The position numbers were made by a program, and so were the translations under genes. The notes below the pieces were generated by a model. The model was not told the origin of the DNA and made no database searches. It was given only the letters and a program-made list of their open reading frames with translations. Of a stretch of DNA of 28,951 nucleotides, positions 94 to 18,730 are shown piece after piece; the stretch's first letter is position 1, and each line of letters starts with the position of its first letter. This DNA is from a virus: positions 1-28,951 of IMG/VR virus record IMGVR_UViG_3300007539_000136, one strand, 5' to 3'.

Positions 94-120
94 AGGAGAA
101 ATTACAATGAGTTGGGAAGA
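94..120 (+). repeat. gene-start direct repeat, copy 1
   Basis: A 27-base block from AGGAGAAATTACAATGA through the first tag codons recurs at 383-409 with two differences. It includes the ribosome binding site, ATG and W-tag codons, which points to duplication of a complete gene start. Confidence 0.75.
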
Positions 121-382
121 AATAATAAAAAACGATTTTCCTTCGGAAAAATATGCACTATTGGTTAAAGTAATAGATGATAGGTTTGGTAATGGTGCTG
201 AAAGGGTTAAGAGGATTAAAGAAGTTTATGATGATAGACCAAGCGGAAAACCTATGACCGATGATGAGTTTGTTAGAGCCTATATTAAAAATGAAATTTA
301 TATGGCAGATAGACAAAAAGACTTTACTATTGATGGCGAGAAATATATTTTTGAACTAAAAAGAATACTTGGCGAAATATGA
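107..382 (+). CDS. small protein with N-terminal W-ILK tag
   Basis: A 91-residue protein of unknown function. I start it at the ATG at 107 rather than an in-frame ATG at 71, because 107 is preceded by AGGAG at good distance and places MSWEEIIK at the very N-terminus, matching the tag of many neighbours. The rest is charged and probably helical (RFGNGAERVKRIKEVYDD), with no catalytic motif visible. The 27 bases around its start (94-120) recur almost exactly at the start of the next gene, 25 of 27 identical, which suggests the 5' end was copied. It is likely a virion-associated or cargo protein by the tag hypothesis; that role is inference. Confidence 0.8.
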   Translation: MSWEEIIKNDFPSEKYALLVKVIDDRFGNGAERVKRIKEVYDDRPSGKPMTDDEFVRAYIKNEIYMADRQKDFTIDGEKYIFELKRILGEI

Positions 383-409
383 AGGAGAAATTACAATGAA
401 TTGGAAAGA
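383..409 (+). repeat. gene-start direct repeat, copy 2
   Basis: Partner of the block at 94-120, 25 of 27 bases identical. A shorter relative, AAGGAGAAATTGAAATGAGTTGG, stands at 727-749 before the third tagged gene, so three successive genes share this start. Confidence 0.75.
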
Positions 410-728
410 TGTTGTTGCTTCTAATGAAAGAGAAGATGCTAAACCTAATCCTCTTTTAGAGTCTGTCATACAAGCATTAGAACTTCTTTATGGTAATAGG
501 CGACAAGTGATAGAATCAAACATTCTTGGCGTTCAGCGTGAAAGCGATTTAGATGCCTTAGTAAATATTGATAAAGAATATATTACAAATTTAATTGGTG
601 ATATAAAATTTGCATATAGTGATAGAAACCCAACAGGTAGCAAAGACCATTTAGATGCTATTAAGGCACTTAATGTTATATGGAGGGTAGCACCCGAAGG
701 AGACGGGTCATGGAGATACGGGCTTTAA
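396..728 (+). CDS. small protein with N-terminal W-ILK-like tag
   Basis: A 110-residue protein of unknown function. The ATG at 396 is chosen over an upstream in-frame start at 369, because AGGAG stands 8 bases before it and the protein then starts MNWKDVVA, a divergent form of the shared tag with V-V in place of I-L and no lysine. The body is mixed alpha/beta-looking, with NIDKEYITNLIGDIKFAY in the middle and a C-terminus ending GDGSWRYGL. The 5' end is a near copy of that of the gene before it. No known domain is recognised. Confidence 0.8.
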   Translation: MNWKDVVASNEREDAKPNPLLESVIQALELLYGNRRQVIESNILGVQRESDLDALVNIDKEYITNLIGDIKFAYSDRNPTGSKDHLDAIKALNVIWRVAPEGDGSWRYGL

Positions 729-740
729 GGAGAAATTGAA

Positions 741-1532
741 ATGAGTTGGTTTTCTGTTTTTAAGTCTCAGCCACATCATGAGGGTAGAACATATAATGAC
801 CCTAATAAACTTGGTAGAGAATTAAACCCAAAAGAGGTAAAAGAGAACGGAGAAATTTTTCTTTTAGATGCAATAAAGTCTATGCCTCATGCGGAGAAAA
901 GAGGAAATACAGTTCTTCTTGACCCTAATTGGTTAGATGGTATGCAACCGACTAACGGTTTATATGGTTCAGATTTTTTTATAGGAGATAAAGTATTTGG
1001 TTTTTCTTTTGACTTTAGAGATATTCATAAAGAAAGATTGTGCATTAACTTTTATTATCAAAGAGCCATTCGGGGAATTGAATTTGAAGATGTGCATTTA
1101 GACAGAACAGAAAGAGTAGGTGATTTTCTTAAAAAGAAAATGTGTATTGCTCATAGAAAAGTTCCGGATAATGTAGAGGGAGATGAAGATTTTTCTCAAG
1201 TGGATTATAAACGAACTGCTACACCAGCAGACGACTATGCGGCTCTTATTTATTTGACAAGCGATAAAGAAATTTTCAATGGTTTATGGAATACTGGGCA
1301 ACCAAGAGGAAAAGAAGGCAATTGGTCTGCCCGTAAGATAGTAGATAAATTTCAATTCAAAAGATTGTCCGATGGAAGATTAGAAAAGTTAGGTTTTGAT
1401 GATTTAAGTAATGAAGATATATTGGAAATGAAAAGGCTTTTGCGGCAATTGCCTAATAACCCGATAAGACTTGATGATGATTATTTTATTAGGGAATATA
1501 TGAGTAAGAGTAATGTAGGAGTGATAGCATGA
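741..1532 (+). CDS. 263-aa tagged protein of unknown function
   Basis: Starts MSWFSVFKSQ with a GGAG ribosome binding site in AAGGAGAAATTGAA. The remaining roughly 250 residues look globular, with aromatic stretches (FIGDKVFGFSFDFRDIH, CINFYYQRAIRGIEF) followed by a charged helical end (LSNEDILEMKRLLRQL). No family is recognised. The stop overlaps the ATG of the next gene (ATGA at 1529-1532), so the two are probably translationally coupled. It is the largest tagged protein in the first 1.9 kb and may carry an enzymatic or structural domain behind the tag, but nothing in the sequence tells which. Confidence 0.85.
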   Translation: MSWFSVFKSQPHHEGRTYNDPNKLGRELNPKEVKENGEIFLLDAIKSMPHAEKRGNTVLLDPNWLDGMQPTNGLYGSDFFIGDKVFGFSFDFRDIHKERLCINFYYQRAIRGIEFEDVHLDRTERVGDFLKKKMCIAHRKVPDNVEGDEDFSQVDYKRTATPADDYAALIYLTSDKEIFNGLWNTGQPRGKEGNWSARKIVDKFQFKRLSDGRLEKLGFDDLSNEDILEMKRLLRQLPNNPIRLDDDYFIREYMSKSNVGVIA

Positions 1533-1690
1533 TTTGGAAAAGCATATTAAAATTTGATATGACTAATGAGACAAAGAAGGCTATACGCATTGTTGAAGAA
1601 TTAAAAGAAAGTAGCGAAGATGAAAGAATACAAAAATTAGAAGATATATTATACGACATATTAGAAAATTTAAGAGGTTATAGGTTTTGA
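1529..1690 (+). CDS. 53-aa tagged mini-protein
   Basis: A 53-residue open frame starting inside the stop codon of the preceding gene (ATGA). It begins MIWKSILKFD, a clear copy of the shared N-terminal tag, and continues as one acidic amphipathic helix (VEELKESSEDERIQKLEDIL). It ends with TGA at 1688-1690, and the next ATG follows four bases later. It is below the length cut of many gene finders, yet the tag, the overlap start and the seamless packing make it a convincing gene. Function unknown; it is little more than the tag plus a helix. Confidence 0.8.
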   Translation: MIWKSILKFDMTNETKKAIRIVEELKESSEDERIQKLEDILYDILENLRGYRF

Positions 1691-1694
1691 TATT

Positions 1695-1949
1695 ATGAAA
1701 TGGAATGAAATACTTAAGATGAATCCTTATGATTGGGAAGATTTGGGCGATATTCTTACAGGAGAATATGATTATGAAAAATGGAAAGATAAGGCTATTC
1801 CTCCAGCACTAAAGGAACTACAAAATAAATTTAATGGTTCACCAAAAGGACTACAAAACGATATTAAGGCACTATTTAGAGACGCAAGTAGATTAAGTAT
1901 GAAACAAAAACAACAAGTTTTTGATATGATTAAGATATTATTGGATTAG
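1695..1949 (+). CDS. 84-aa tagged protein
   Basis: Starts MKWNEILKMN, one of the most canonical copies of the tag. The rest is an acidic N-half (DWEDLGDILTGEYDYEKW) and a basic, helical C-half ending MKQQVFDMIKILLD-like. No recognised domain. It lies between the 53-aa mini-protein and the 780-aa protein with gaps of 4 and 8 nt, so it is part of one polycistron. Likely a small virion or cargo protein by the tag hypothesis. Confidence 0.85.
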   Translation: MKWNEILKMNPYDWEDLGDILTGEYDYEKWKDKAIPPALKELQNKFNGSPKGLQNDIKALFRDASRLSMKQKQQVFDMIKILLD

Positions 1950-1957
1950 GTGTTTAA

Positions 1958-4300
1958 ATGTCTTGGTTTGAATTATTAAAATTAGTTCCGTTAGATAACT
2001 ATACTTTAGCATTTGTTATAACTAACGCCAAAGAAACGGAGAAAGCAATAAAAGAAATAGAAGCGTTAGAAAAAACACCTAAAGCACTTAAAGAATTATT
2101 AAGAAGTGTTGAAAATAAACAGTTAGATTTACAGAATTTAAAAGATTTATACGGTCAGCCGCCACATGGCGACCAAACTTTAGAACAAATGAAAGAAAAT
2201 GTGCAAAAAATAAAGGAAGCGGCACGATTTTTGACAATTGATGAGGTCAAAGAGTTAGTTGATGAAGCAACCGAAGCAAAAAGAAATGATAATCACCAAA
2301 GAGTTGAAGAAATTTTAGAAAATTTAGACCAAAATGCTGATTTGTCCGTTGCTACTCTTAAAAGATATAGAGATTTAAGAGATAAATTAGATTTATTGAG
2401 AACAAAAGGCAATAAATCTACTATAATTTTTGATAATCCTCCAAAAAATAAAAGTTTAATCACAGAATTTGCTAAATTAATTGGCGGAACTGTAAAAGGT
2501 GATGGAATTTTAGTTGATTTTAAGTCGGAAAGTGAAATTGTTGCTTTAATGTCAATAAAAATGAACAAAAACCGAGATAAAGTCTTAGATTCTAAAGCAG
2601 TTGTAGATAGAAAAAATAAAATTAAAGAAATTTACAATAAAATGCAAGGAGAAGAAAGAAATTTGGGTATGAAACTCAATATTGGCGATGACAATATTGA
2701 AATTGATGACTTAGTTAGACAAAAAAAGATATTTATTGCTTCGGATAGAAAATTAGAGTTAATTGAACCATTTACGGGTGCTTCTGTAATAAAATATGTT
2801 AAAGCAGTTGATAAAACTAAAGGTAGTGTAAGAGCATTTAGGCCAACAACACTTCCAAATGGAAATAGTCTCCCTTCTGTTCTATTTTTAGATAAATCAA
2901 GTTCAAATAGTATGAATCTAAATCCATATTCTTCTTTAGTTATACAAAATGATTTTTCCGAAAGCGAAAATTGGGAAAAAATGTTTTTTGATACTCTAAG
3001 AAGTAATGAAATGTTAAGTTTAGAACAGGCTAAAAGAATAATTATGGAAGAAATATACCAAGCAGTTGTAGCAGGTGAAGATAGAACCGTAAGTAATCTA
3101 TATATCGGGAGTCTTGTTGGGGAAAACGGTATTCAAAACCCACAAACTAAAACCAAAAAGGCAGTTAAGAAAGAAATTAATAACTTCATAAACTCAAGTA
3201 GGATTTTAGGAGAAGAAGTAGAAAATGCCAAATTAAACTTACAATCCGAGCAACTGCAATACTTGGGCGAGGATTTTACTATTCAAGAAGCAAATAACTT
3301 TGAAGAATTTTATAAAGTTCTAAGCGAAAGCGACCCCGAAGATTTCCCAATAGACGATTTAAAAATTAAATACTTTAGAAACGGTAGAGCATTAGACCCC
3401 GAAGAACCTCAACCTGTTTTAGAAGATGGTGTTCCAAAAAGAGACAATGAAGGCAATATTATTTTCTCAAGAGCAAATGTCAAGCAATATGCTAATCATG
3501 CTTCGGTATCTTTAGGTGGAGAAAAAATTAATCCAAGAGATGCTTATGAAATAGGAATGAAAGCAACAAGCCGTGATGCTTCGGAAGCCGCTAAAGAAAA
3601 AATTGATGATTTGATTAAGAATTTAGAAGAAAAAATACGCAAGGCTAAGGAAAAGTTGGATAAGTATTCTAAATTTAGTGCAGAAAATTTGCCTAAAGAT
3701 GAAAAAGGCGAACCAACTATGCAACCTCTTCAACTACAAGAACTACAAGAAGCAACCAAAAGAAATATTGCTCGCTATGAAATGAGACTGAAACAAACTA
3801 AAGATAGAAAGAAATCCGGCAAAACATTAACAGACTTTGGCGAACAAACCGCAAAATTAAGAGATGAACTTTTAACAACCGATAATTTTGCTGAATATGT
3901 TGTTTCTATGTCAAGAAAACTAAAAGATAAGGGAGGATTAGAAGAGTTTGTTAATACTATTGAAAGGTCAGCAACCGCTTTAGATAAGATTACTCCGGAA
4001 AGAAGTTTAAGTTTCCTTGCACAAATGGCTGAACATACTAATAATGATGAAATAAGAGAAGCCTTTATTAAAATTGATTCTAACGCAGAAACAGCAGAAG
4101 CCGAAGCAAATAAGTTAAATCAGCAAATGCCTAATATACTTAAAATAATGCAGGAACAATTAATCGGGGGTTTCAAGAATAAACTACAAGAATTTGTTGA
4201 TAAACCAGCGACTTTTCCCGATAATCAAGTAATAAATGCAAAGAAACAATTTATCAATCAAAATCTAATAAGATATGCAGACGCAACAGGAGAGGAATGA
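1958..4300 (+). CDS. 780-aa tagged, coiled-coil-rich protein
   Basis: Starts MSWFELLKLV after an AGGTG ribosome binding site. The first 140 residues are highly charged helices. A central part (about 150-300) has alternating short strands (STIIFDNPP, IGGTVKGDGILVDF). Residues about 565-650 form a strong predicted coiled coil (KIDDLIKNLEEKIRKAKEKL), and the C-terminal 150 residues are again helical. No enzyme motif is visible. The length, charge and position upstream of the terminase, in a gene array with the capsid-type tag, suggest a virion core or ejected protein, but tail-associated roles cannot be excluded. Its end overlaps no gene; the 827-aa gene follows after 4 nt. Confidence 0.88.
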   Translation: MSWFELLKLVPLDNYTLAFVITNAKETEKAIKEIEALEKTPKALKELLRSVENKQLDLQNLKDLYGQPPHGDQTLEQMKENVQKIKEAARFLTIDEVKELVDEATEAKRNDNHQRVEEILENLDQNADLSVATLKRYRDLRDKLDLLRTKGNKSTIIFDNPPKNKSLITEFAKLIGGTVKGDGILVDFKSESEIVALMSIKMNKNRDKVLDSKAVVDRKNKIKEIYNKMQGEERNLGMKLNIGDDNIEIDDLVRQKKIFIASDRKLELIEPFTGASVIKYVKAVDKTKGSVRAFRPTTLPNGNSLPSVLFLDKSSSNSMNLNPYSSLVIQNDFSESENWEKMFFDTLRSNEMLSLEQAKRIIMEEIYQAVVAGEDRTVSNLYIGSLVGENGIQNPQTKTKKAVKKEINNFINSSRILGEEVENAKLNLQSEQLQYLGEDFTIQEANNFEEFYKVLSESDPEDFPIDDLKIKYFRNGRALDPEEPQPVLEDGVPKRDNEGNIIFSRANVKQYANHASVSLGGEKINPRDAYEIGMKATSRDASEAAKEKIDDLIKNLEEKIRKAKEKLDKYSKFSAENLPKDEKGEPTMQPLQLQELQEATKRNIARYEMRLKQTKDRKKSGKTLTDFGEQTAKLRDELLTTDNFAEYVVSMSRKLKDKGGLEEFVNTIERSATALDKITPERSLSFLAQMAEHTNNDEIREAFIKIDSNAETAEAEANKLNQQMPNILKIMQEQLIGGFKNKLQEFVDKPATFPDNQVINAKKQFINQNLIRYADATGEE

Positions 4301-4304
4301 TATT

Positions 4305-7151: not shown

Positions 7152-7430
7152 ATGACATGGGAAGATATAATAAAGATAGACCAAAGACAAAGAGATTTAG
7201 GACTTGTAGCACAATGGTTAGATGAAACAAAAAAGAAATATGCAGGGAAGCAGTATAATGTGGCTCGTTTGCCTCCGCAAACACCCGTATATGATGCTTT
7301 CAAAAGATTATACGATGGGGGAGATAAACAACAATTGTATAATTTGACTAAGCAAACTTTTGGATATGCAGGTGTTAGTGTTGGAGATTCTTTAGAAGGC
7401 CGACAAGGAGCATATTACATAGGGTTGTAA
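7152..7430 (+). CDS. 92-aa tagged protein
   Basis: Begins MTWEDIIKID at the ATG at 7152, preceded by AGGTGATATT, a textbook GGTGAT-type ribosome binding site; longer in-frame starts would run into the previous gene and lack such a site. The body contains QWLDETKKKYAGKQYNVARL and ends in a glycine-rich segment (YAGVSVGDSLEGRQGAYYIGL). No family recognised. Its first 12 codons closely resemble those of the gene at 7450 at both DNA and protein level, so the tag-coding 5' ends may have been copied. Confidence 0.83.
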   Translation: MTWEDIIKIDQRQRDLGLVAQWLDETKKKYAGKQYNVARLPPQTPVYDAFKRLYDGGDKQQLYNLTKQTFGYAGVSVGDSLEGRQGAYYIGL

Positions 7431-7449: not shown

Positions 7450-7710
7450 ATGACATGGGAGGATTTTTTGAAAGCCCGTTATTATGACGATGCTATGCAA
7501 ACTAATCCTCAATTGATAGCACAACAACTACGACAGGATTTTAGCAAAGCCCCTTCATTACATAAAGCAATTACTAATATTGTTCCTATTTTGGAAGAAT
7601 ATGCTTTGAAAGATAAAGCAAGAGCAGGTAGATATAGAGAGATTGCTAACAATCTAAGGAAGGTGGCTTCCGATATTAAACAAATGATAACCGAATATGA
7701 GAGGTCTTGA
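7450..7710 (+). CDS. 86-aa tagged helical protein
   Basis: Begins MTWEDFLKARYY, with GGAG in TTGGAGAAATTAAT before the ATG. It reads as an all-helical protein (LIAQQLRQDFSKAPSLHKAI, NNLRKVASDIKQMITEYE). No known domain. Its end overlaps the most upstream possible start of the next gene by 14 nt, and its last codons contain the GAGGT that could serve that gene's TTG start at 7712. Confidence 0.83.
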   Translation: MTWEDFLKARYYDDAMQTNPQLIAQQLRQDFSKAPSLHKAITNIVPILEEYALKDKARAGRYREIANNLRKVASDIKQMITEYERS

Positions 7711-9148
7711 TTTGTTTAAAGAAATGTCTAAAGAAGAACTCCAACAACTATGGAGCGAAACTATGGGCGATGAACCATTTCCTATGAATAGGTCGGAAAA
7801 TTCACCATTGGATTCTTTTTATCCTATTGATAATTTTATAGTTTTTATGAAAGAAGGAAAACCAATTTCCGGTGTTGGTTATTCTACAAGAGATGGTTTT
7901 AGTCTTAGAGGCGGGGCATTTACTATTCCCGAAGAAAGGGGCGAAGGAGTTTATAAAAAAGTATCACAGGAAGCAGATAGAATAATCCCAACTCCATATA
8001 TTGCAGGTTTTTCTTCATCTAATATTAGTTCAAAAGAATGGAATCAAACAGCAAAAGATAACGGTTGGTCTATCAAACCGACTGATGAAGAATTAGGAGA
8101 GTATGCAAACAATCCAACAATTAAAGCATTCAAAGACTATTATGATAATCACCCAAAAGGTGCGTCATGGGGAGTTAAAGGATTACCTTTGAAAAAGTGG
8201 TTTAGCATTCTTAAGTCATATAGAATAGAAATGGGTAAAGAGGGATATAATGTTCTTAATGCTTCGGGTAAAATTTTGAATTACAAAGGACTTAGCCGTT
8301 CACAGGCAAGAGCATTTGTTAAAGATTTAAAAGAAGGTAAAGATGTAAGCAGGTTCACTACAAAGCCCCGTAAAACAATTAGAGGCGGTTGGTTTAATCA
8401 ATTAAAAAAGTGGCTACCCGATGATAATTTTAAAATTGATACTGATGAAGATGGCGAAGAAATAATTTGGGAAGATACAAAGGACAACCCTTCACCATAT
8501 TATTATGACTCAAATAGAAACATATACATTAGACCCCATTACATAAATGTAGGAAAGGAAAGAACCCAAATGCAACCTTATGCTAATTCAACAGATATGA
8601 TAGATGAGTGGATTAGCAAAATATATGACAAGAACATTACAAGTAATGGTGCTTGGTTTTATGCTAATAACAAAAGTAGTGATTTAAGTTATGTTTTTGT
8701 TAGAAAAGCATCGGGAGATGCGAAACTATTAGGCTCAAAAAATCTTAAAAATAAAAAACCCACACCTGCTTTAATTTTTGACACTTTTAGAGGAAGAATA
8801 AAAACTAAAACTTCATCCTTTATTGGCAGACCGGAAAGCGGATTTTTAGATATTTGGGGAACAGGAATAAAAGCAGGACACAAAGAAGGCCAATTTATTG
8901 CTAATTCCGAACCACCACAAGAAACAGCGTATAGTAATGCTCAAACCAGCGATGAAGTTTATGAAGTGTTTAGTGTTATTAGGGCAAGAATAGAAGATAG
9001 AATAAAAACGGTAACTAATAGAAGAGATGGTGCAACTAATCCAGAAACAATAGAAAATGCAAATAAACAAATTGATAAACTAAAAACAAAATTGAATAAT
9101 GAATATAAAAAATATAAAAGAATACATAGAGAAATTGGTGATATTTAA
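7697..9148 (+). CDS. GNAT-like protein fused to a domain after an internal W-ILK motif
   Basis: A protein of 483 residues from the ATG at 7697, or 478 from a TTG at 7712 that has GAGGT six bases before it and would give MFKEMSKEEL; the second is slightly favoured by the ribosome binding site. Residues about 45-125 resemble a GNAT N-acetyltransferase core: strands around FIVFMKEGKPISGVGY, then TIPEERGEGVYKKV, similar to the acetyl-CoA binding loop. Residues 166-173 read KKWFSILK, an internal copy of the tag that opens every neighbour, and a second unrecognised domain follows to a coiled C-terminus. This suggests fusion of a GNAT-like gene to a tagged gene. The GNAT call is tentative. Confidence 0.7.
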   Translation: MRGLDLFKEMSKEELQQLWSETMGDEPFPMNRSENSPLDSFYPIDNFIVFMKEGKPISGVGYSTRDGFSLRGGAFTIPEERGEGVYKKVSQEADRIIPTPYIAGFSSSNISSKEWNQTAKDNGWSIKPTDEELGEYANNPTIKAFKDYYDNHPKGASWGVKGLPLKKWFSILKSYRIEMGKEGYNVLNASGKILNYKGLSRSQARAFVKDLKEGKDVSRFTTKPRKTIRGGWFNQLKKWLPDDNFKIDTDEDGEEIIWEDTKDNPSPYYYDSNRNIYIRPHYINVGKERTQMQPYANSTDMIDEWISKIYDKNITSNGAWFYANNKSSDLSYVFVRKASGDAKLLGSKNLKNKKPTPALIFDTFRGRIKTKTSSFIGRPESGFLDIWGTGIKAGHKEGQFIANSEPPQETAYSNAQTSDEVYEVFSVIRARIEDRIKTVTNRRDGATNPETIENANKQIDKLKTKLNNEYKKYKRIHREIGDI

Positions 9149-9462
9149 TGGAATTAGTTATGTGGCAAACTATTCTTAAGCAAGAGTATTCTTATGAATG
9201 GGTTGGTATTGTTGATGGCCGACCTATTATGTTAGTTGATGTTGAAGGAGAAAAAATATTATTTTATCTAAGAACAGGTAGTGGCGGTGCAGATGCGGAA
9301 GGAGTTGAAGAGGAAAACCAAATTAAAGCAGGTCAATTTGCACCCTTTTATGGATTTAGACATGATGGATGGTTTATTAAACCACAAGGAAGTAGAGCAG
9401 GAAATTATCTTAAAGTCGCTCGGTGGTTAGATAAAAACGCAACAAGGATTGGCCAAGAATAG
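9148..9462 (+). CDS. 104-aa protein with near-N-terminal tag
   Basis: The ATG at 9148 has GGTGAT five bases upstream, overlaps the previous stop and gives MELVMWQTILKQEY; an ATG at 9160 would put the tag MWQTILK at the very start but lacks a good ribosome binding site. The remainder looks like a small beta-rich domain (IVDGRPIMLVDVEGEKILFYL, FYGFRHDGWFIKPQGSR). No family is recognised. Three of the tagged proteins, including this one, carry GW or DW motifs further on, which I consider incidental. Confidence 0.8.
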   Translation: MELVMWQTILKQEYSYEWVGIVDGRPIMLVDVEGEKILFYLRTGSGGADAEGVEEENQIKAGQFAPFYGFRHDGWFIKPQGSRAGNYLKVARWLDKNATRIGQE

Positions 9463-9879: not shown

Positions 9880-11310
9880 ATGGAATTAGAAACATTTAAT
9901 TTTGAACATGAAATGGATATGCAATTATCCAAAAACTCTTTTCCATATTTTTTTCAAAATGTATTAGGTTTTGATTTTCCTTCATACATACAAGAATGGC
10001 ATGAATTAATGAACTCTACACAAAGAACTGTAATTATTTGTTCAAGAGACCACGGAAAATCTGTTTTTATGCATAGTTGGGTTGTTTGGAAATTAATCTT
10101 TGAAGAACCCCCATATCAAATGTTATACATCTCTTCTAACCAAAAACAGACTTTAGTTCATATGAGAGATATTGATAAGATGTTTATGCACCCTATGTTA
10201 AAAAAGTTTAAACCCGCAAGAGGTTGGGCTATTGGTAATATTACTTTAACTAACGGAAATCAAATTCTTGAGCGTTCTGTCGGTTCACAGATTAGAGGAC
10301 TTCACCCTCAAGAGATTATTATTGACGACCCTTTGAAAGAGTTTAGTATGACGGGTATTCAAAAAGTCACAGATTGGTTTTATGGTGATATGATACCAAC
10401 ACTTCACCACACCGCTTCTCTAAGAGTTATTGGAACTCCATTTAGTTATACAGATATTTACCAACAGTTAGCAGAAAATGATGCTTATACTGTTAGAACC
10501 TATCCATGTCTTAATTCTCTTAATGAACCGCTATGGCCGGAAAGGTGGAACTATGATGCTCTAATGGCTCGTAAAGCGGAAGTCGGTTCTTTGATGTTCA
10601 CAAGAGAATATATGTGCGTTCCTATTTCAACGGGAACTTCTTTGTTTAGCCCCGAACATATGGAGAATGCTAAGAATAAGGATTTAGTTTTGAAGCCTCT
10701 AAAGCGTGAGGGCTACAAATATTTTATTGGTATTGACCCTGCTATTTCTACTGATGGCGACTACAATGTAATTACTGTTATAGAAATGGATAGTGATGAA
10801 AATAAATCCATAGTATATATTGACCGAGCGAAGAATGTTCAGTTCCGAGAGAATATACAGAAAGTAAAGTTGTTGGGTCAAATGTTTAGACCCGAAGTTA
10901 TATTGTTTGAGACAAATACATTTGCTAAGTCATTTACTCAAGAGTTAAGGCAAGTGGCTGATTTAAATGTTCATGACTTTAACACAACAAGAAGAAAGAA
11001 ACAGGAGATTATACTTAATCTACAAATGACTCTTGAGAATGGAAAACTAAATTTCCCTTATGGTAATGAAGAGAGCCGTAAGGTTTCATCATTGTTAATT
11101 GAAGAGTTATCTATGTTTGCTATTACTGAAAGAGGCAAGTTTGAAGGAATAGGAGCGCACGACGATATGGTTATGAGTTTAGCATTAGCAAATGCCGCAA
11201 CATACCAAGCCAACGATAACTTCATACTATTAGATGATTTAGGGTTATTTAATGAAACTCCTAATGATGGGAGAAAGCCTGTTAGAAATGCAATAGGATT
11301 AAATTTTTGA
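9880..11310 (+). CDS. terL: terminase large subunit (DNA packaging ATPase-nuclease)
   Basis: The 476-residue motor protein that pumps viral DNA into the procapsid through the portal and cuts it. N-terminal ATPase: Walker A variant CSRDHGKS (54-61), Walker B EIIIDDP (145-151) and a coupling motif GTPFSYTD (185-192). C-terminal RNase H-like nuclease: GIDPAIS with Asp286, FETNT with Glu344 and AHDDMVMSLA with Asp428/Asp429, supplying the metal-binding acids. The length is normal for the family and it looks intact. The start is fixed by GAGGTGATATT just upstream. It lacks the W-ILK tag, as expected if the tag marks packaged cargo, because terminase leaves after packaging. Confidence 0.97.
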   Translation: MELETFNFEHEMDMQLSKNSFPYFFQNVLGFDFPSYIQEWHELMNSTQRTVIICSRDHGKSVFMHSWVVWKLIFEEPPYQMLYISSNQKQTLVHMRDIDKMFMHPMLKKFKPARGWAIGNITLTNGNQILERSVGSQIRGLHPQEIIIDDPLKEFSMTGIQKVTDWFYGDMIPTLHHTASLRVIGTPFSYTDIYQQLAENDAYTVRTYPCLNSLNEPLWPERWNYDALMARKAEVGSLMFTREYMCVPISTGTSLFSPEHMENAKNKDLVLKPLKREGYKYFIGIDPAISTDGDYNVITVIEMDSDENKSIVYIDRAKNVQFRENIQKVKLLGQMFRPEVILFETNTFAKSFTQELRQVADLNVHDFNTTRRKKQEIILNLQMTLENGKLNFPYGNEESRKVSSLLIEELSMFAITERGKFEGIGAHDDMVMSLALANAATYQANDNFILLDDLGLFNETPNDGRKPVRNAIGLNF

Positions 11311-11319: not shown

Positions 11320-11724
11320 ATGGGTTGGTTTAGTATTTTAAAAATAGGAAATACCTATCCTTCACCAAAATATACAACCTTTATGGTTCATGATAATGTT
11401 TGGGATAGTGCTAATATGGTTAATAATGTTGGTGGTATTAGAGAATTAGAAATGTCTTTAGGTAGAGAATTAACCGAGAAAGATTTTACTGATGCTCCTG
11501 TTAATTGGTCTGACTCTTTTTGGAATGAAAATAGGGCAAAAAACGCACCATTTGATATTACCCCCGATGAAATAAATGCAGATAGTGATTCCATAAAAAG
11601 AAAAAAAGAAATATTAGGGGAAGAAGGAAGAAAAAAATTAGCAAGAAGTTATTTGAATAGCGATAGACCAAACAAATATCCGGATAGAATAAAAGAAGCA
11701 GAAAGAATATTGGGGGTTGCGTGA
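11320..11724 (+). CDS. 134-aa tagged protein between terminase and homing-type endonuclease
   Basis: Begins MGWFSILKIGNTY after the TGAGGTTTTATT junction, where the terminase stop codon forms part of the ribosome binding site. The central part is aromatic (NWSDSFWNENRAKNAPFDI) and the C-terminus is basic and helical (IKRKKEILGEEGRKKLARSY). No known family. Only a single base separates its TGA from the next ATG. A structural or cargo role is suggested only by the tag. Confidence 0.83.
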   Translation: MGWFSILKIGNTYPSPKYTTFMVHDNVWDSANMVNNVGGIRELEMSLGRELTEKDFTDAPVNWSDSFWNENRAKNAPFDITPDEINADSDSIKRKKEILGEEGRKKLARSYLNSDRPNKYPDRIKEAERILGVA

Positions 11725-11725
11725 A

Positions 11726-13102
11726 ATGTCGGAAGCAGGGGATAAATTTAGAGAAATGGCGACTGTGGCTGATGAAGTAGAAGAAGGTAAAAAACGCCTT
11801 AAGCAGAAAGAAGAAGAAATAAAAAGACTTAGTGCGGGAAAAAATGAAGAAATACAAACAAGTCTCTTTACAAATACTCATGTTCTATCCGAGCATGAAG
11901 AAATAACAAAACTTGCAGACCATCTTAACATAAATGCAACAGAAGCAAGAAAACAATTAGATAATTTTCCTAATGAATATTTAGTTCAAGACCATACTAT
12001 TCCCGACATTGTTAGAAAGATGAGGAAGGCTCGCAGGGCTTTGAAAGGTGAACAAAGAATCAAAATGTCAAAGGCGATTGACACAATGATTGATGCTTAT
12101 GCCGACCACTTACAGAAGTGCATTGATTCAATAACATGGTTAAATGACTATACAGTTCCTTTATCTAAAATGAGATATAATGAAAAGGACTTGGTTAAAC
12201 TAAATAAAATGAAGAGTAGTGAATTAAGAAGAGAAACAATTGATGCTCTTTGTAAATATTGGGAAGCAGAATTAGAACAAAAAGATATGGCTTATGGTAA
12301 AGAATATAGCGATTTATTTAAAACAATGAAATCTGCAAAGAAAGAATTTAGAAATGCAATAAATAAAATAACTAATCAATCTATTTCTAAAAGTAAAAAA
12401 CAAAGACAAGAAGAGTTTATTTTAAAAACTGTATGTGAAAATCCGGGTATTTCTGCTAAAGGAATACATGAAAGAATGCCGTCTCAATTGTTTAAAATAT
12501 CAAGTCCAAATAATATATCTAAAGTAATTAAAAAATTAGATATTGCTTCAAGTGATGGTTCTTATTATAAAATGCCGTCTTTGATTAAAAAGAATATTTG
12601 GGCTTATACTGCGGCATTTATTGACTCCGATGGATATATTACATTAGACCGTAATATGAATCCAAGAGTAGGTTTGGTTGCGACAGGTGAAAGAGGAAAA
12701 GTATTCATGAAAGAAATGCACAAGTCAATAGGTTTTGGCCGTATGCACTTAGACCAAAAATCACCGCAAGATACAAGGCCGATTAACAGGCTCAATTTTT
12801 ATTCTCAAGCAGATGTTAGTGAATTGCTAACTAAGTGCTTGCCACATTTTAGATTAAAGAAAGGTAATGCTAAATTATTATTAGAATTAATCCGTATGAA
12901 AAAATCATATAAGAAAGAAGATTGGTATAAACAACGGTGCGATGAAATATTTAAGTTAATGAAGTGGGAGAATCATAAAGACCATGTTGGTTTTGATTGG
13001 CTAAAAGAAGGAATCTATCTTGATGATATACAGAAATACAAAGACAACTGCAAAATGTCTGTTATGGATAGCCTTGAAAATATCGGAGGAATAATAGCAT
13101 GA
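11726..13102 (+). CDS. coiled-coil/winged-helix protein with LAGLIDADG endonuclease-like C-terminus
   Basis: The ATG at 11726 gives 458 residues; an in-frame TTG at 11717 overlaps the previous gene. Residues 1-225 are charged helices with a coiled-coil start (VEEGKKRLKQKEEEIKRL). About 228-287 resemble a winged helix (FILKTVCENPGISAKGIHE, then ISKVIKKLDI). About 292-395 match the single-motif LAGLIDADG endonuclease family: WAYTAAFIDSDGYITL holds the motif with its acidic residue, followed by basic strands and LLLELIRMKKSY. One motif implies a homodimer. This may be a free-standing homing endonuclease near the terminase, or a packaging DNA-binding protein into which an endonuclease domain was inserted. 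It does not carry the tag. Confidence 0.85.
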   Translation: MSEAGDKFREMATVADEVEEGKKRLKQKEEEIKRLSAGKNEEIQTSLFTNTHVLSEHEEITKLADHLNINATEARKQLDNFPNEYLVQDHTIPDIVRKMRKARRALKGEQRIKMSKAIDTMIDAYADHLQKCIDSITWLNDYTVPLSKMRYNEKDLVKLNKMKSSELRRETIDALCKYWEAELEQKDMAYGKEYSDLFKTMKSAKKEFRNAINKITNQSISKSKKQRQEEFILKTVCENPGISAKGIHERMPSQLFKISSPNNISKVIKKLDIASSDGSYYKMPSLIKKNIWAYTAAFIDSDGYITLDRNMNPRVGLVATGERGKVFMKEMHKSIGFGRMHLDQKSPQDTRPINRLNFYSQADVSELLTKCLPHFRLKKGNAKLLLELIRMKKSYKKEDWYKQRCDEIFKLMKWENHKDHVGFDWLKEGIYLDDIQKYKDNCKMSVMDSLENIGGIIA

Positions 13103-13302
13103 AATGGGAAGAAGTATTGAAAAAGAAAAAGAAGAAAAAATCACCTTATGCGAATCCTAAACTAAGAGCAAGTGTTGTTCAAGCCGCTAAAAATAAAGTG
13201 TTTGGAGATGGAAAAGGCGGAAACGCTAAAGGTGCTTGGTCAGGAAGAAAGGCTCAATGGGCGGCAAGAGAATATAAGAAGCGTGGTGGAACTTACAGAT
13301 GA
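13099..13302 (+). CDS. 67-aa tagged, very basic protein
   Basis: Begins MKWEEVLKKKKKKK: the tag passes directly into seven further lysines, coded by a near-homopolymeric A/G stretch. The rest ends WSGRKAQWAAREYKKRGGTY, similar to C-termini of small basic proteins of tailed phages and giant DNA viruses (SARKxQxxAxEYKKxGGGY, recalled from memory). ATG overlaps the previous TGA (ATGA). The charge implies nucleic-acid binding, and together with the tag suggests a DNA-condensing protein packaged in the virion. That function is inference. Confidence 0.85.
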   Translation: MKWEEVLKKKKKKKSPYANPKLRASVVQAAKNKVFGDGKGGNAKGAWSGRKAQWAAREYKKRGGTYR

Positions 13303-13571
13303 AATGGCGTAGTGTTCTTAAAGCCAAAACAAAGGCGCAACGAGATTTAACTCAATGGACTGATGAAGATTGGGGAACTCAAACAGAACATAGAGCCAAA
13401 GAAAAAGGCAAAACGCCAAAGAAAGAAAAAACAAGAGGGCGTTATATGCCGAGAGCAACTTACAAAAGAACCTCAAAGGGAACTTTAAATTATCAAGATA
13501 GAAAGAAAAGAAAAAGCGTAAAGGCAGGTAAGACAACTGCACCAACAGGAAAAAAGTTTAGTCAAAAGTGA
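13299..13571 (+). CDS. 90-aa tagged, very basic protein
   Basis: Begins MKWRSVLKAKTK, overlapping the previous stop as ATGA. Its C-terminal two-thirds are extremely basic (KEKGKTPKKEKTRGRYMPRA, then DRKKRKSVKAGKT), typical of proteins that coat or condense DNA. The RGRYMPRATYKR segment resembles small basic proteins of large phages and algal viruses, from memory. It belongs to a run of four small tagged genes (13099-14063), three of them strongly basic. No enzymatic motif. Confidence 0.85.
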   Translation: MKWRSVLKAKTKAQRDLTQWTDEDWGTQTEHRAKEKGKTPKKEKTRGRYMPRATYKRTSKGTLNYQDRKKRKSVKAGKTTAPTGKKFSQK

Positions 13572-13576
13572 TTATT

Positions 13577-13777
13577 ATGTGGAAAGATATATTAAAGCAA
13601 GACATAAAAGAAAAAATACTTGCTGAAATTAAAAAAGAAGGCGGGGCATTAGGTATGAAAAATCTAAAACAATTTGGTGAAGAAGCAGAAATAAAAAGAG
13701 CCTTAGCCGAATTAGAAAAAGATGGTAAAATATTTATGCACAAAGATGGAGATATTTACACGCATAACCCGAAGTGA
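13577..13777 (+). CDS. 66-aa tagged winged-helix-like protein
   Basis: The ATG at 13577 is preceded by GTGATTATT and gives MWKDILKQDI, the short form of the tag without the residue between Met and Trp; an in-frame GTG at 13568 lies in the ribosome binding site. The body reads as a compact winged helix: helices EKILAEIKKEG and EIKRALAELEKDG, followed by a beta wing KIFMHKDGDIYTH. It would be a small DNA-binding protein. The next gene's ATG follows after GTGATATT. Confidence 0.8.
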   Translation: MWKDILKQDIKEKILAEIKKEGGALGMKNLKQFGEEAEIKRALAELEKDGKIFMHKDGDIYTHNPK

Positions 13778-13781
13778 TATT

Positions 13782-14063
13782 ATGGATTGGCAGGAAATTT
13801 TAAAGAAAAAGCCTTTCAAGGGTTATAATAAAAAGATTCATGCAAGAACCGGAGGACTAAGTGCTAAAGGTCGTGCTAAATTTAAGCGTGAACAGGGTTC
13901 TAATCTAAAACCTCCTGTGACAACTAAACCGAGCAAATTAAAAAGAGGAAGTAAAGCGGCAAAGAGGCGCAAGTCTTTCTGTGCGAGGTCAAGAGGATTT
14001 AAGCGAGCCGATGGAACTTATAGTGAAAAAGCAAGAGCCGCAAGAAGAAGATGGAATTGTTGA
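13782..14063 (+). CDS. 93-aa tagged basic protein, DUF6321-like
   Basis: Starts MDWQEILKKKPFKGYN at the ATG at 13782, with AGTGATATT before it. The following sequence has GGLSAKGRAKFKREQGSNL, SKAAKRRKSFCARSRG and a C-terminal ARRRWNC. From memory this pattern belongs to small basic proteins of cyanophages and giant viruses annotated as DUF6321. In those proteins the family domain lacks such a leader, so here the W-ILK tag appears to have been added to a known domain. Probably nucleic-acid binding. The family name should be confirmed by a profile search. Confidence 0.85.
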   Translation: MDWQEILKKKPFKGYNKKIHARTGGLSAKGRAKFKREQGSNLKPPVTTKPSKLKRGSKAAKRRKSFCARSRGFKRADGTYSEKARAARRRWNC

Positions 14064-14066
14064 TAT

Positions 14067-14183
14067 ATGTTTGATTATTGCGGAGACTGTTATATAACAC
14101 CGAAAGTTTATCCATTCGGTCTTTGTCATAAATGTTGGGTAAAATACGGAAAGCCAATAGGTATGCAAGTAATAGAGGAATAA
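14067..14183 (+). CDS. 38-aa zinc-ribbon mini-protein
   Basis: A 38-residue frame with ATG at 14067, three bases after the previous stop, ending TAA at 14181-14183. It contains CGDC (5-8) and CHKC (20-23), two CxxC knuckles 11 residues apart, enough for one zinc site. The next ATG follows two bases after its stop, with AGAGGAATAATT as ribosome binding site, so the gap is exactly filled. It is shorter than many gene-calling cut-offs. It may act as a small nucleic-acid or protein-binding zinc finger; no tag is present. Confidence 0.65.
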   Translation: MFDYCGDCYITPKVYPFGLCHKCWVKYGKPIGMQVIEE

Positions 14184-14185
14184 TT

Positions 14186-14434
14186 ATGATTATGAAAAGA
14201 CTTTCATGGCAACAATTAAAGACAGGCATACTTAATGATGAGTTGCCTAAAGATAGAAGCAAATATGTTAGGTATAGTAATCTTGCTTCTATCAATAAAA
14301 AAATGGTTATTTATTATTTGCGCTCCGGTTTCAAAAGTCCGGAAAATAGGAGCAAATACCTGCGTGGTATTTTAGATGAAATGCTCCGTTCAAGTAATGA
14401 AAGGTATGACATTGAAGATGCTTCTAAACGGTGA
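14186..14434 (+). CDS. 82-aa helical protein with variant tag
   Basis: I start it at the ATG at 14186, preceded by AGAGGAATAATT; an upstream in-frame start would overlap the zinc-ribbon gene. The N-terminus is MIMKRLSWQQLKTGIL, in which Trp8 and the following Leu-Lys look like a shifted version of the shared tag. The remainder is basic and helical (NKKMVIYYLRSGFKSPENRS). No recognised family. A 54-nt gap before the portal gene contains only AAGGGG as ribosome binding site and no clear promoter. Confidence 0.72.
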   Translation: MIMKRLSWQQLKTGILNDELPKDRSKYVRYSNLASINKKMVIYYLRSGFKSPENRSKYLRGILDEMLRSSNERYDIEDASKR

Positions 14435-14488
14435 TAGCGAAGGCTTGATAACTGATAGGAGTCGTGCAATAATTCAAGGGGTATAATT

Positions 14489-16126
14489 ATGGTTGAGCAA
14501 AAAAGAAGATTTAGCCTAACCAACCTGTTTAGGCGTTCTACTCCCAAACCTGCGGATAGAACCGTATTTAATATGGGAATCCAAGAAAGAGAAACCCATC
14601 ATATGATGAATGGGCCGATTATTTACAATATTGTTAATCAGTCAGTTATTGCGAGAACTTGCATTACTCAACTAAAACAAGAGGTTTTTCGTAGGGGCTA
14701 CATTTGGGAAAAGGCATTTGAAGCCCGATGTGGAGATTGTAAAAAAGAACACAAAAGACCCGTTAAAGAATGTTCTCGTTGTGGAAGCACTAATTTAACA
14801 GTTCCCGATATTAAACAGTTAGAGTATGCCGAAGATTTTTTGGAAGGATATGTCAATAAATCGGAACAACTTTTTATTGATGTATTACAGGAATTAGAAG
14901 ATGATTTGAATATAATGGATGATGCCTATATTGTTTTGGTAAAAGAATACTTTTTAGACGGTAATGGTAAAATTAGAATGCATCGTATCAAAGAATTATA
15001 TCGTGGCGACCCTGTGACTATGTTTATTTATTCCGATGAATTAGGACAAAGAGGAACAAAAGGATTTACTTGTGTTAATCATCGTGATGTTATTTACAAA
15101 GACCCACATGAACCTTGCGAGCATTGTGGAGCAAATACTTTTCCTGTTCATTATGTAAATAGAGTTAATGGACAAGACCAACATTTCCTAAAGGGAGAAG
15201 TTTTGCATTTTAGTAAATACAGTCCATCAAGACTTTATGGTATGTCTCCTGTCATTACTTTATTCAATAATATTATGACTCTTATTGCTATGGAAAATTA
15301 TGTTAATTCTTCATATACAAAGAGCCGAATGCCAAAAGGATTACTTGCAGTTCAAACAAGAAACATGGATTCGATGAAATCTTTTTGGAGAGCAGTAAAA
15401 GAGAAAATGGAAGCCGACCCGCATTTTATTCCTGTTATGGGTATTGAAGCCGAGAATGGTAAAGGTGCGGTTGAGTGGGTCAAGTTCATGGATAGTCTAA
15501 AAGAAATGGATTATGTTGCTGTTAAAGATGATTTAAGAGATAGAATATCAGCATTTTATGGAGTAAGTAAAGTTTTCATGGCTGATAATACTACAAGCGG
15601 TGGATTAAATAATGAAGGTATGCAAATACTTGTCACTAATAGAGCAGTTCAAAAAGCACAAACTGTTTATAATAATTATGTATTTCCATTCCTCACAAAA
15701 CAATTTGGAATTACTGATTGGAATTTGAAATTACCACCAAGCGAAGAAGAAGATGAAATCGCAGTAATAAGAAAAAGAGAATTAGAAGTAGGAATTGCAG
15801 GTTCAATTAAGAATTTAGGATTTGATGTTGAAATGGATGAAGATGGAAACTTTACCTTTACAAAACCTAAACCGGAAGAAAAACCAAAAGAAGGGGGAGA
15901 AGAACCATATGAAAAAGACCCTTATGCCGGAACTAATATAGATGCCTCCCAATTAGGACAAATGCAGGAGCAAGCATTACAGGGCGGAAGTAAGCCACAA
16001 GCAAATCCAGCAACAACAAGAAATAAACCATCTATGAATCAAGGGCCGGATAAAAGAATGTCAGGATTACCATTAGAAGCAGGAAATCAAAATAATGATA
16101 AAAGAACTGAAAGGAGGATTAATTAA
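14489..16126 (+). CDS. portal protein with zinc-knuckle insertions
   Basis: A 545-residue portal, the ring at the capsid vertex through which DNA is packed. Recognised from the order of parts: an N-terminal clip with FNMG and a helix, the stretch VLHFSKYSPSRLYGMSP near 240-254 typical of HK97-type portals, the wing helix, and ISAFYGVSKVFMADN followed by NRAVQKAQTVYNNYVFPFL. Two cysteine-rich insertions are unusual: CGDC...CSRC (81-98) and C195...CEHC (210-213), which probably bind zinc. The C-terminal 90 residues are low-complexity, Pro/Gln/Asn/Lys-rich. It lacks the W-ILK tag. The start has AAGGGG upstream. Confidence 0.92.
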   Translation: MVEQKRRFSLTNLFRRSTPKPADRTVFNMGIQERETHHMMNGPIIYNIVNQSVIARTCITQLKQEVFRRGYIWEKAFEARCGDCKKEHKRPVKECSRCGSTNLTVPDIKQLEYAEDFLEGYVNKSEQLFIDVLQELEDDLNIMDDAYIVLVKEYFLDGNGKIRMHRIKELYRGDPVTMFIYSDELGQRGTKGFTCVNHRDVIYKDPHEPCEHCGANTFPVHYVNRVNGQDQHFLKGEVLHFSKYSPSRLYGMSPVITLFNNIMTLIAMENYVNSSYTKSRMPKGLLAVQTRNMDSMKSFWRAVKEKMEADPHFIPVMGIEAENGKGAVEWVKFMDSLKEMDYVAVKDDLRDRISAFYGVSKVFMADNTTSGGLNNEGMQILVTNRAVQKAQTVYNNYVFPFLTKQFGITDWNLKLPPSEEEDEIAVIRKRELEVGIAGSIKNLGFDVEMDEDGNFTFTKPKPEEKPKEGGEEPYEKDPYAGTNIDASQLGQMQEQALQGGSKPQANPATTRNKPSMNQGPDKRMSGLPLEAGNQNNDKRTERRIN

Positions 16127-16518
16127 TGAATTGGTTAAGTATTTTGAAGAATAAAAGAAGTTTCAAGGATTTGAGACAATTAAGAGAAGAAGGCGTTAGA
16201 GAAGGAAAACAAAGAAGAAAGCCTCCAACACCTATGGCGGGTGGCGACCCCCGACAAAACAAACACAAACTTACTCAAGCATGGACAGGTGGAAGAGAAG
16301 GTGGGTATTTAGATGAAAAAGAACCACTTGATGAAACCCATGACGACAAATTCACAAGAGAACAATTAGCAAATTCAACTCGCTTTGATTTAATGGAGAA
16401 GGTTCAAGATATGTTAGATGATTTAACAGAAGATGAATTGATTGATATTCTAATAACTTCTCAAGGAGAAGTGGGGCTGATGGGAATTGAAATCGCAGAC
16501 AGGAGAGGAAAGAAATGA
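16126..16518 (+). CDS. 130-aa tagged protein downstream of the portal
   Basis: Begins MNWLSILKNKRSF with a full AGGAGG ribosome binding site; its ATG shares a base with the portal stop (TAATG). The first 60 residues are basic, with REGKQRRKPPTPM. The C-terminal 60 are an acidic helix (MEKVQDMLDDLTEDELIDIL). No family recognised. A basic-then-acidic layout would suit a scaffold-binding or DNA-binding adaptor, but that is a guess. It overlaps the next gene by 4 nt. Confidence 0.85.
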   Translation: MNWLSILKNKRSFKDLRQLREEGVREGKQRRKPPTPMAGGDPRQNKHKLTQAWTGGREGGYLDEKEPLDETHDDKFTREQLANSTRFDLMEKVQDMLDDLTEDELIDILITSQGEVGLMGIEIADRRGKK

Positions 16519-16739
16519 CAGAAGATTTGAGACAAAAACAAATAAGACTAACAAAAGAGTTAGCACAGGTCAAGGCATTGACGGCACAAGAAAATAATAA
16601 AGTAAAAAAGAACAGGGATATGTCAGTAGGATTACCAACAGATACTACACATAAAGCAAGACCGGAATCAAATGGTAATCCCGATGTTATTTTGTTGCCT
16701 TCTAAGAAAAGAAAGAGTTCCGAAAACATTCCATTTTAA
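16515..16739 (+). CDS. 74-aa small charged protein
   Basis: Starts at an ATG overlapping the previous stop (ATGA) with AGGAGAGG upstream. The N-terminal half is a coiled-coil-like helix (RQKQIRLTKELAQVKALTAQ) and the C-terminal half looks disordered and basic (LLPSKKRKSSENIPF). No tag is present and no family recognised. Position between tagged and coiled-coil genes after the portal suggests a minor virion-assembly factor. Confidence 0.72.
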   Translation: MTEDLRQKQIRLTKELAQVKALTAQENNKVKKNRDMSVGLPTDTTHKARPESNGNPDVILLPSKKRKSSENIPF

Positions 16740-16748
16740 GGTGATTAT

Positions 16749-18365
16749 ATGTTTATTGAATTGCTTAAAGATAAGTCTTTAAAAAATGTTTTATTGAAGG
16801 CTGATTTAGATAACGAAACTAAAGAGTTAGTTGAAAGCGATTCAAATATTACCTTAATTAAGGAGTCTTTGATAAAAAACATTAATCCTAACAATATGGT
16901 TTCTTATAGAAAATATATTAAGAAAGCAGAAGAAGAGGAAGATGAACAATATGGAATTGCTGATGATGAAACAGGAGAAGAGGATTCATTGGGAACTTCA
17001 AGTGAAGATTATTTAAGTAGTGAAGAAAGAGATGCTAGATTAGAATCCGCAGAAATTGAATCCGACATTCAATTGATGGAAGATGAAAAAGATGCTTATA
17101 GATATTTAAGTGTATTATCATCTAAACTAAAACCTCTTCAAGATATAATGCAAAATGCAAGAATAGAAACACAAACTTTCAAGACAAGTAGGGCAGAAAG
17201 AGAGAAAGAGGTTGTTGTTGGAGGAATGAAAGATTTTCTTAAAGTAAGCGGTAGTGAAGATAATTCCGTTAAAACTCTACAAGATTTAAGAAACATTAAA
17301 ACAGATAATGATTATTTAATTAAAGAATATGGTCGTTTGCTAATTGACGGTGTTCTAAAAGGAAAAGATTTCAAAAGAGATAAGGACACTAAACAGTTTG
17401 AAGTCAAGTTAAATGAAAAGAAAGACATTGATGTAGAAGAACTACAAAATAAGTTTGTTTCACTATTGGCTCAAGATATTGAAGGCAAAAATGTTCTTGA
17501 CATTATGAAAATGTTGCATCAACAACAATACGGCAGAACACCAAAAACAATGCAGGATAGAGGTAAAAGAGCAAGAGAATTACGAGGCATAATGATGTTT
17601 GCTCAAGGTAAGAGCCAAAAAGTTGAAAGAGAATATAAAGCAATCAAAAATGATATAAAGCAACTTAGTAGTAAAACTGCTGAAATAAGGGTTAAAAAAG
17701 ATTTTGTTGAAGAAAAGATTCAAGAAATAGAAGAAATAATGCAAGAACCCGAAAAAATAGTTCAATTAAAAATTAAAAGACTAAGAGCAGGAATTATGAC
17801 GCTAATTAATTCCACAGGAACAAAACCCGATGAAGTCAAAAGACTAATGAATAGAATTAAAGAAATGGACACAGGAAAAGAAAGATTTATTCAAGAAGCC
17901 ACAGCAGAAATCCAAGAAGATTTAGAAGTTGAACAGGCCAAATTAAAACAATACCTAATTACTTTAAATGCGGCTGATAGACTCAAAGAACCTCTTAGTG
18001 GCTTTAGAAAAATAATTGGTATGTTCCAAGAAAATGACCCGATAGACGCTCTTAAAACAAAAATAACAAAAGCCGGAAATATTGTTATTAAACTTTATAA
18101 TCAAGCAAAAGGAATAGAAGCGTTTGCTTCTCGTCAAGAAGATGGGATTGAAGGAGGCATAAGTGCTTATTTAACAGATAATCCCGAAGTTAAATTGACT
18201 CTTGATGCAGACGGCTTAGATTTTGATGGCCTTCCAACAATTGATGCAGAAGCAGTTAGAAGAATGGGAGAATTTGAAGATAAGTTCAATGCTAAAGTTA
18301 GTGAGTTAGAGGAAATTGTTAATGAACTAAATAACATGATAGAAGGGAAAGGTGAAGATGAATGA
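16749..18365 (+). CDS. 538-aa coiled-coil protein
   Basis: Starts MFIELLKDKSLKNVLL with AGGTGATT before the ATG. The FIELLK beginning is at most a weak relative of the tag, as Trp is replaced by Phe. Residues 55-90 are very acidic (EEEEDEQYGIADDETGEEDS). About 290-410 form long coiled coils (KTAEIRVKKDFVEEKIQEIE), and helices continue to the end. No enzyme motif is seen. Length, composition and location between portal and protease are compatible with a core scaffold or internal virion protein. The end overlaps the next ATG by 4 nt. Confidence 0.85.
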   Translation: MFIELLKDKSLKNVLLKADLDNETKELVESDSNITLIKESLIKNINPNNMVSYRKYIKKAEEEEDEQYGIADDETGEEDSLGTSSEDYLSSEERDARLESAEIESDIQLMEDEKDAYRYLSVLSSKLKPLQDIMQNARIETQTFKTSRAEREKEVVVGGMKDFLKVSGSEDNSVKTLQDLRNIKTDNDYLIKEYGRLLIDGVLKGKDFKRDKDTKQFEVKLNEKKDIDVEELQNKFVSLLAQDIEGKNVLDIMKMLHQQQYGRTPKTMQDRGKRARELRGIMMFAQGKSQKVEREYKAIKNDIKQLSSKTAEIRVKKDFVEEKIQEIEEIMQEPEKIVQLKIKRLRAGIMTLINSTGTKPDEVKRLMNRIKEMDTGKERFIQEATAEIQEDLEVEQAKLKQYLITLNAADRLKEPLSGFRKIIGMFQENDPIDALKTKITKAGNIVIKLYNQAKGIEAFASRQEDGIEGGISAYLTDNPEVKLTLDADGLDFDGLPTIDAEAVRRMGEFEDKFNAKVSELEEIVNELNNMIEGKGEDE

Positions 18366-18730
18366 CATGGGATTTTTACGGTGAAGGAGAAGATTTTATT
18401 CTAAAAGCGGAAAAACAAAAACCAAAGGAAGTTCTTGATTCATTAGATGCTAAAGGTAGAAAAAAACTCAAAAAGACACTACAAGCGGCAGAACCCACAG
18501 AATTTTTTGGACAGGATTTTACTAAGTTGGGAGAACTAATTTCAACTCTTAGAGAATTAGATTTAACTAAGTCCGATAAAGTTCTAAATAAAAAAATGAA
18601 ATCAATGGATGAGCGCAACATTGATATTGTTGCTACCGCTACCAAACTTCGTAAAGAGTATGAACTTCTATATAGACAGTTGAGAGATATTGTTTATCCA
18701 ACAGGAGGAAAGAAGAATGACAGAAAATAA
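18362..18730 (+). CDS. 122-aa protein with interrupted tag
   Basis: Starts MTWDFYGEGEDFILKAEK: the MTW opening and a later EDFILKA suggest a tag interrupted by an insertion. AAAGGTGA lies just before the ATG, which overlaps the previous TGA. The rest is basic and helical (DAKGRKKLKKTLQAAEP, ERNIDIVATATKLRKEYELL). No known domain. It overlaps the start of the next gene by 14 nt. Confidence 0.78.
   Translation: MTWDFYGEGEDFILKAEKQKPKEVLDSLDAKGRKKLKKTLQAAEPTEFFGQDFTKLGELISTLRELDLTKSDKVLNKKMKSMDERNIDIVATATKLRKEYELLYRQLRDIVYPTGGKKNDRK

Follow-up and report, generated by a model that had tools for sequence, protein, structure and literature searches.

A portable W-x-x-I-L-K peptide on otherwise unrelated proteins of a magrovirus-type head operon, a candidate capsid-targeting signal

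The IMG/VR record IMGVR_UViG_3300007539_000136 (positions 1 to 28,951; the window, hereafter, is this whole stretch of 28,951 bases) corresponds to a head module of the magrovirus type of archaeal tailed viruses, in which many otherwise unrelated proteins carry the same short peptide, W-x-x-I-L-K, mostly at their N-terminus (the tag). The window encodes a large terminase, a portal protein, a major head protein and a S78 prohead protease whose tail is scaffold-like. Its portal shares 28% identity with that of the haloarchaeal virus HCTV-5 and a more remote likeness with the portal of a Methanomassiliicoccales virus. More than 400 relatives of this virus are present in IMG/VR, the near-complete ones being 91-96 kb long; gene set, size and G+C content agree with those of magroviruses of marine Poseidoniales archaea, and the host of the window virus would accordingly be archaeal by assignment from the magrovirus literature (PMC10768690). 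The features of the order Magrovirales (Aoguangviridae and relatives) were all found, i.e., an archaeal tailed virus of 90-100 kb with low G+C content, an ATP-dependent DNA ligase, HK97-type head genes and a distant relation to Druskaviridae; no direct match to a type genome of the International Committee on Taxonomy of Viruses for this order was present in the collection searched.

The first-pass annotation of the window had listed 16 protein starts with a common W-ILK peptide. The pattern W-x-x-[ILVFM]-[hydrophobic]-K, located one or two residues downstream of an ATG, is found at 15 of them, the remaining one (396, MNWKDVVASNE) lacking the lysine; the start placed at 9148 also bears the tag, but is better moved to 9160. 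The consensus of the tag is M-[SKNT]-W-[KQFE]-[DNES]-[IV]-[LI]-K. In the window, 14 of the 39 called plus-strand genes are tagged, versus a mean of 0.033 after shuffling (maximum of 2 in 2000 shuffles), and tag starts correspond to 17 of the 819 plus-strand ATGs versus none of the 310 minus-strand ATGs. Enrichment over shuffled sequences, which the same annotation had proposed to look for in related contigs, was also found there: among the 1332 unique proteins of 81 related loci, the motif begins within residues 2-9 in 242, for 1.15 expected (maximum of 4 in 200 shuffles), and the motif follows 16% of the ATGs within the first 10 codons versus 0.15% of internal ATGs. When 98 tagged or tag-bearing proteins were aligned, the tryptophan and the lysine were the sole invariant positions, in line with the claim that these proteins are otherwise unrelated. 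The initial observation is confirmed, and is stronger than had been stated.

The Ile and Lys codons within the tag follow background usage; the tag is therefore not a copied DNA element, and codon choice shows selection at the peptide level. A DNA or RNA repeat near the starts of genes, involved in translation or regulation, would fit the location of the tag directly after start codons, but it is contradicted by synonymous codons varying as in the background and by the C-terminal and internal copies described below. A DNA-level repeat is ruled out by codon usage as the origin of the tag, and we give this explanation the least credence of all.

Table 1. Genes and motifs of the window discussed in the text.
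Position	Strand	Feature	Method
107..382	+	MSWEEIIK... tagged protein, tag at 107-130	
396..728	+	Partial tag MNWKDVVASNE, without K	
741..1532	+	MSWFSVFK... tagged protein, 263 residues	
1529..1690	+	MIWKSILK... tagged protein, 53 residues	
1695..1949	+	MKWNEILK... tagged protein, 84 residues	
1958..4300	+	MSWFELLK..., largest tagged protein, 780 residues	
6794..7147	+	MTWKNILK... tagged protein	
7152..7430	+	MTWEDIIK... tagged protein	
7450..7710	+	MTWEDFLK... tagged protein	
7697..9148	+	Two-domain GNAT-fold protein, internal tag WFSILK at nucleotides 8198-8215	AlphaFold, Foldseek
9160..9462	+	MWQTILK... tagged protein; reading frame opens at 9148	
9880..11310	+	Large terminase, untagged	
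11320..11724	+	MGWFSILK... tagged protein	
13099..13302	+	MKWEEVLKKKK... tagged basic protein	
13299..13571	+	MKWRSVLK... tagged basic protein	
13577..13777	+	MWKDILK... tagged protein; weak winged-helix matches	
13782..14063	+	MDWQEILKK... tagged DUF6321 protein	
14132..14434	+	Variant tag ..MKRLSWQQLKTG..; orthologues MSWRELHK, MKWKDFTK	
14489..16126	+	Portal protein, untagged	
16126..16518	+	MNWLSILK... tagged protein adjoining the portal	
16749..18365	+	F-variant tag MFIELLK; coiled head-module protein, 538 residues	
18362..18730	+	Split tag MTWDFYGEGEDFILK; clean in clade B orthologues	
18921..18947	+	Small head protein (18690-18971), C-terminal motif MDWSEIHKM	
23315..23341	+	S78 prohead protease-scaffold (22133-23356), C-terminal motif MDWSDIHKM	
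23358..24710	+	Major capsid protein, candidate receptor	

The three weaker forms reported earlier, at 14186 (within the gene starting at 14132), 16749 and 18362, look real. Orthologues of the first carry recognizable tags, the second is the F variant, and orthologues of the third start with MSWQSILKAS in clade B (Table 1; clades B and C are more distant from the window, with portals about 70% and 59% identical). More generally, many seemingly untagged members of tagged families correspond to near-misses, e.g., MTWQDILQKK or MDWRELISKRK. The domain encoded at 18362 is specified by a separate small gene in clades A and B, and its homologues form the end of a protein of 401-583 residues in clade C (e.g., L224:9152-10903). 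The contigs L223 and L224 are magrovirus-like sequences placed in bacterial metagenome-assembled genomes (Maricaulis and Altibacter), presumably by misbinning.

Three near-complete genomes (91-96 kb) have 16, 23 and 14 genes tagged at the start, all on the head-gene strand and nearly all upstream of the capsid gene (the module of one genome wraps round the contig end); no tag was found in their approximately 200 opposite-strand genes. Tagged proteins fall into about 97 families, many seen once, with matches to GNAT acetyltransferases, PAP2, pentapeptide repeats, zinc ribbons and DUF6321, and a weak match to DUF5872. The tag is absent from the portal (0 of 81 orthologues), from the DNA ligase (0 of 78), from the 11717-type (HNH-like) protein of the head operon and, apart from one chance match, from the terminase (1 of 52). 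HCTV-5 and vir335 lack both the tag and the C-terminal motif presented below in their head modules. The capsid protein contains a W-x-x-V-M-K sequence (LDTDHLWLSVMKP), which we treated as unrelated to the tag because it has a fixed position in a conserved stretch.

The ATP-dependent DNA ligase (19588-22098) sits within the head-gene operon. An untagged but conserved protein of about 840 residues (4275-6788), without Pfam or PHROGs match, lies between the cargo genes and the terminase in clades A-C, and a small GTPase-like protein (26372-27040; GSTMVGKTT P-loop and NKYD, read by eye) is encoded 3′ of the capsid gene. One contig, IMGVR_UViG_3300021958_000021 (184,733 bases; loci L037 and L053), contains two head modules whose portals differ (86% and 79%), and probably corresponds to two virus genomes joined together.

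The tag had been described as N-terminal, which mostly holds, but not strictly, since C-terminal and linker copies occur in the GNAT family. The protein encoded at 7697 has an internal WFSILK at a domain boundary, previously overlooked. In this family, a GNAT-fold domain (Foldseek, GCN5-type, E 2e-5) is followed by the tag, which forms the C-terminus of one-domain members (e.g., ...SWHLILKRY and ...NWKDILRR) and is located between the domains of two-domain members. In the window protein, the GNAT-fold domain spans residues 1-163 and the tag residues 168-173, with the second domain after it. AlphaFold predicted residues 1-163 mostly with a predicted local distance difference test (pLDDT) above 90, residues 165-172 below 50 and the next part confidently; within the low-confidence linker, the tag itself is modelled as a short helix. 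The tag tryptophan of this family is near-invariant across two clades. The tag is therefore a position-independent portable peptide, seen in three virus clades. An amphipathic membrane anchor or a generic N-terminal stabilizing sequence could account for a tryptophan and hydrophobic residues followed by a lysine; a length of six residues, the linker copies, the restriction to one operon and the invariant W and K make this very improbable.

One of the tagged domains, DUF6321, is also encoded by phages. In magroviruses, 23 of the 24 copies with the SFC[AG]R core are W-tagged, the 24th being incomplete at its 5′ end, and in the loci L034, L038 and L068 the tag adjoins the domain even behind another segment. 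The domain occurs without the tag in T7-like cyanophages and pelagiphages and in other phages, one of these untagged genes being located between scaffold and capsid genes. In T4-like cyanophages, DUF6321 proteins start with T4-type peptides, such as MKTFNQFQAE and MKTFKEFQEG; the internal proteins IPI-IPIII of T4 itself start with MKTYQEFIAE or MKTFKEF (NC_000866). Across related loci, short DUF6321 proteins have such a start in 11 of 14 unique cases, versus 16 of 233 for the remaining short proteins (p = 9e-10). One of our search patterns for these cyanophage peptides, MKTFNQFQ, was biased toward such starts, but the result does not depend on it because the exact string occurs in two near-identical loci (one unique start). 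Standalone DUF6321 proteins with T4-type peptides are encoded in the T4-like cyanophage loci L331 (1698-2060) and L343-L398. The same cargo domain with a lineage-specific address matches the prediction of a capsid-targeting role for the W tag, and suggests that DUF6321 is a general head-cargo domain. No mention of DUF6321 was found in the literature searched.

The first-pass annotation had proposed that the tag is a docking signal that would load proteins into the procapsid before DNA. This proposal gains partial support from the confinement of the tag to the head operon, from its absence in the terminase, the ligase and the 11717-type protein and from the T4-type peptides of DUF6321 proteins. 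We consider, with a probability of roughly 0.72, that W-x-x-I-L-K is a short linear docking signal recruiting cargo proteins into the assembling virus head; it would best be read as a counterpart, by analogy and not by homology, of the T4 capsid-targeting signal. The tag probably forms a short amphipathic helix (as predicted by modelling) on a flexible end or linker, and could bind a conserved site of a head component, either the inner face of the HK97-fold capsid protein or the core of the protease-scaffold. Any domain gaining it at the N-terminus, at the C-terminus or in a linker would be carried into the procapsid, and the cargo would presumably enter the archaeal host together with the DNA, as in the analogous case of the T4 internal proteins. 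We infer the head loading, the delivery to the host and the identity of the receptor.

Two further copies of a related motif, also missed earlier, end the small head protein encoded at 18690 and the protease-scaffold. The strict end MDWS[DE]IHKM is present in 68 of 68 protease-scaffolds and in 73 of 75 small 18690-type proteins; one short motif is thus shared by the C-termini of the scaffold and of another head protein. Over clades A-C, the motif becomes M-x-W-x-[DE]-[IL]-[HN], with the tryptophan in 292 of 292 C-termini of both proteins; a C-terminal DNA pattern scan of viral contigs returned almost exclusively this clade. The cargo tag and the scaffold end have the core W-x-[DE]-I in common, and may share an ancestor or a receptor. 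The C-ends of the protease-scaffold and the small head protein in clades B and C still have [DE] at +2 and, in most cases, I or L at +3; most of them lack K at +5, whereas the cargo tags retain L-K. Scored with a position-specific scoring matrix of the tag, clade A scaffold ends come close to the 95th percentile of internal W sites, and those of clades B and C lie lower. With a shared core, but differing +4 and +5 positions and clade-dependent scores, the two appear to be distinct motif classes.

Given this related C-terminal motif of two head proteins, the cargo peptide may, speculatively, have arisen as a modified form of the end by which the scaffold itself would bind the capsid. The stronger version, in which cargo peptides are evolved mimics of this end, with open, encapsulin-like loading and tens of proteins competing with the scaffold for one docking site on the capsid protein, is tentative and less likely than not. 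Its support is partial, given the differences at +4 and +5; for the same reason the tag does not track the scaffold C-end, an idea that held only in part when tested in clades B and C.

Several results weigh against head loading: scaffold ends have H or N at +4, versus L or I in cargo tags (and no K at +5 in clades B and C); AlphaFold of the scaffold tail with the capsid protein (locus L003, translation table 4) gave an uninformative model, with a pLDDT of 41; no receptor was found for the tag; and the tag profile has no residue preference at +6 to +11, i.e., no conserved cleavage site, as had been noted earlier. The first and third of these would suit a tag recruiting to another late hub, such as a host factor, a virus factory or the terminase/portal complex, without presence in the virion being required, and late co-expression alone would suffice for operon clustering. 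We regard this as unlikely, since late-operon proteins acting outside the particle (terminase, ligase) have no tag, DUF6321 bears T4-type capsid-targeting peptides in T4-like phages and the protease-scaffold itself ends in a related motif. A T4-like head-targeting propeptide removed by the S78 prohead protease appears less probable still: the protease is encoded and capsid-targeting sequences of T4 undergo cleavage (PMC9026906), but residues +6 to +11 show no preference and C-terminal and inter-domain tags are unlike a removable N-terminal propeptide.

If head loading is correct, one consensus marks 14-23 candidate cargo proteins per near-complete genome in very abundant uncultured ocean viruses, including acetyltransferases, a PAP2-type phosphatase, pentapeptide-repeat proteins and small basic proteins. 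The set of proteins injected by uncultured viruses would become predictable from sequence, and the tag would provide a direct test of cargo selection by HK97-fold heads and a short portable loading tag. To our knowledge and in the literature searched, archaeal viruses have no capsid-cargo signal on record, and the known signals of this kind (T4, P1) span a handful of proteins. We found no earlier description of the tag in the literature searched, which excluded the original magrovirus paper.

Among known systems, the closest is the capsid-targeting sequence of T4 IPI-IPIII, which packages foreign proteins in experiments (PMC9026906). The parallel, already drawn in the first-pass annotation, holds for a short terminal peptide, with aromatic and hydrophobic residues, common to many otherwise unrelated and often small basic proteins of an accessory, fast-changing gene set, and the DUF6321 cargo domain is shared with T4-like cyanophages. 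It fails for residues and spacing (MKT[YF]xxF in T4, a pattern that the tag does not have, versus M-x-W-x-x-I-L-K here) and for cleavage; the tag also occurs in linkers and C-termini, marks far more families per lineage and belongs to an archaeal virus, for which packaging is predicted. The tag would work like the T4 capsid-targeting sequence but is outside that family by sequence and cleavage. In phage P1, an N-terminal sequence targets DarB into the tailed-virus head, but Dar N-termini have no consensus (PMC9024508), unlike the single consensus over about 97 families here. The scaffold protein SP of phage 80alpha and CpmB of SaPI1 have in common a C-terminal RIIK helix-and-hook that binds the capsid protein, as seen in a solved structure (PMC5644958). 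The protease-scaffold and the 18690-type protein similarly have a common C-end motif; in 80alpha/SaPI1, two scaffold-like proteins only are involved, whereas the cargo variants here are mostly N-terminal and their receptors are candidates. Encapsulin cargo-loading peptides are portable terminal peptides that load unrelated proteins into a HK97-fold shell. Their likeness to the tag would be functional, with no sequence relation claimed, and, unlike in encapsulins, the container here is a virus head that has its own scaffold and protease.

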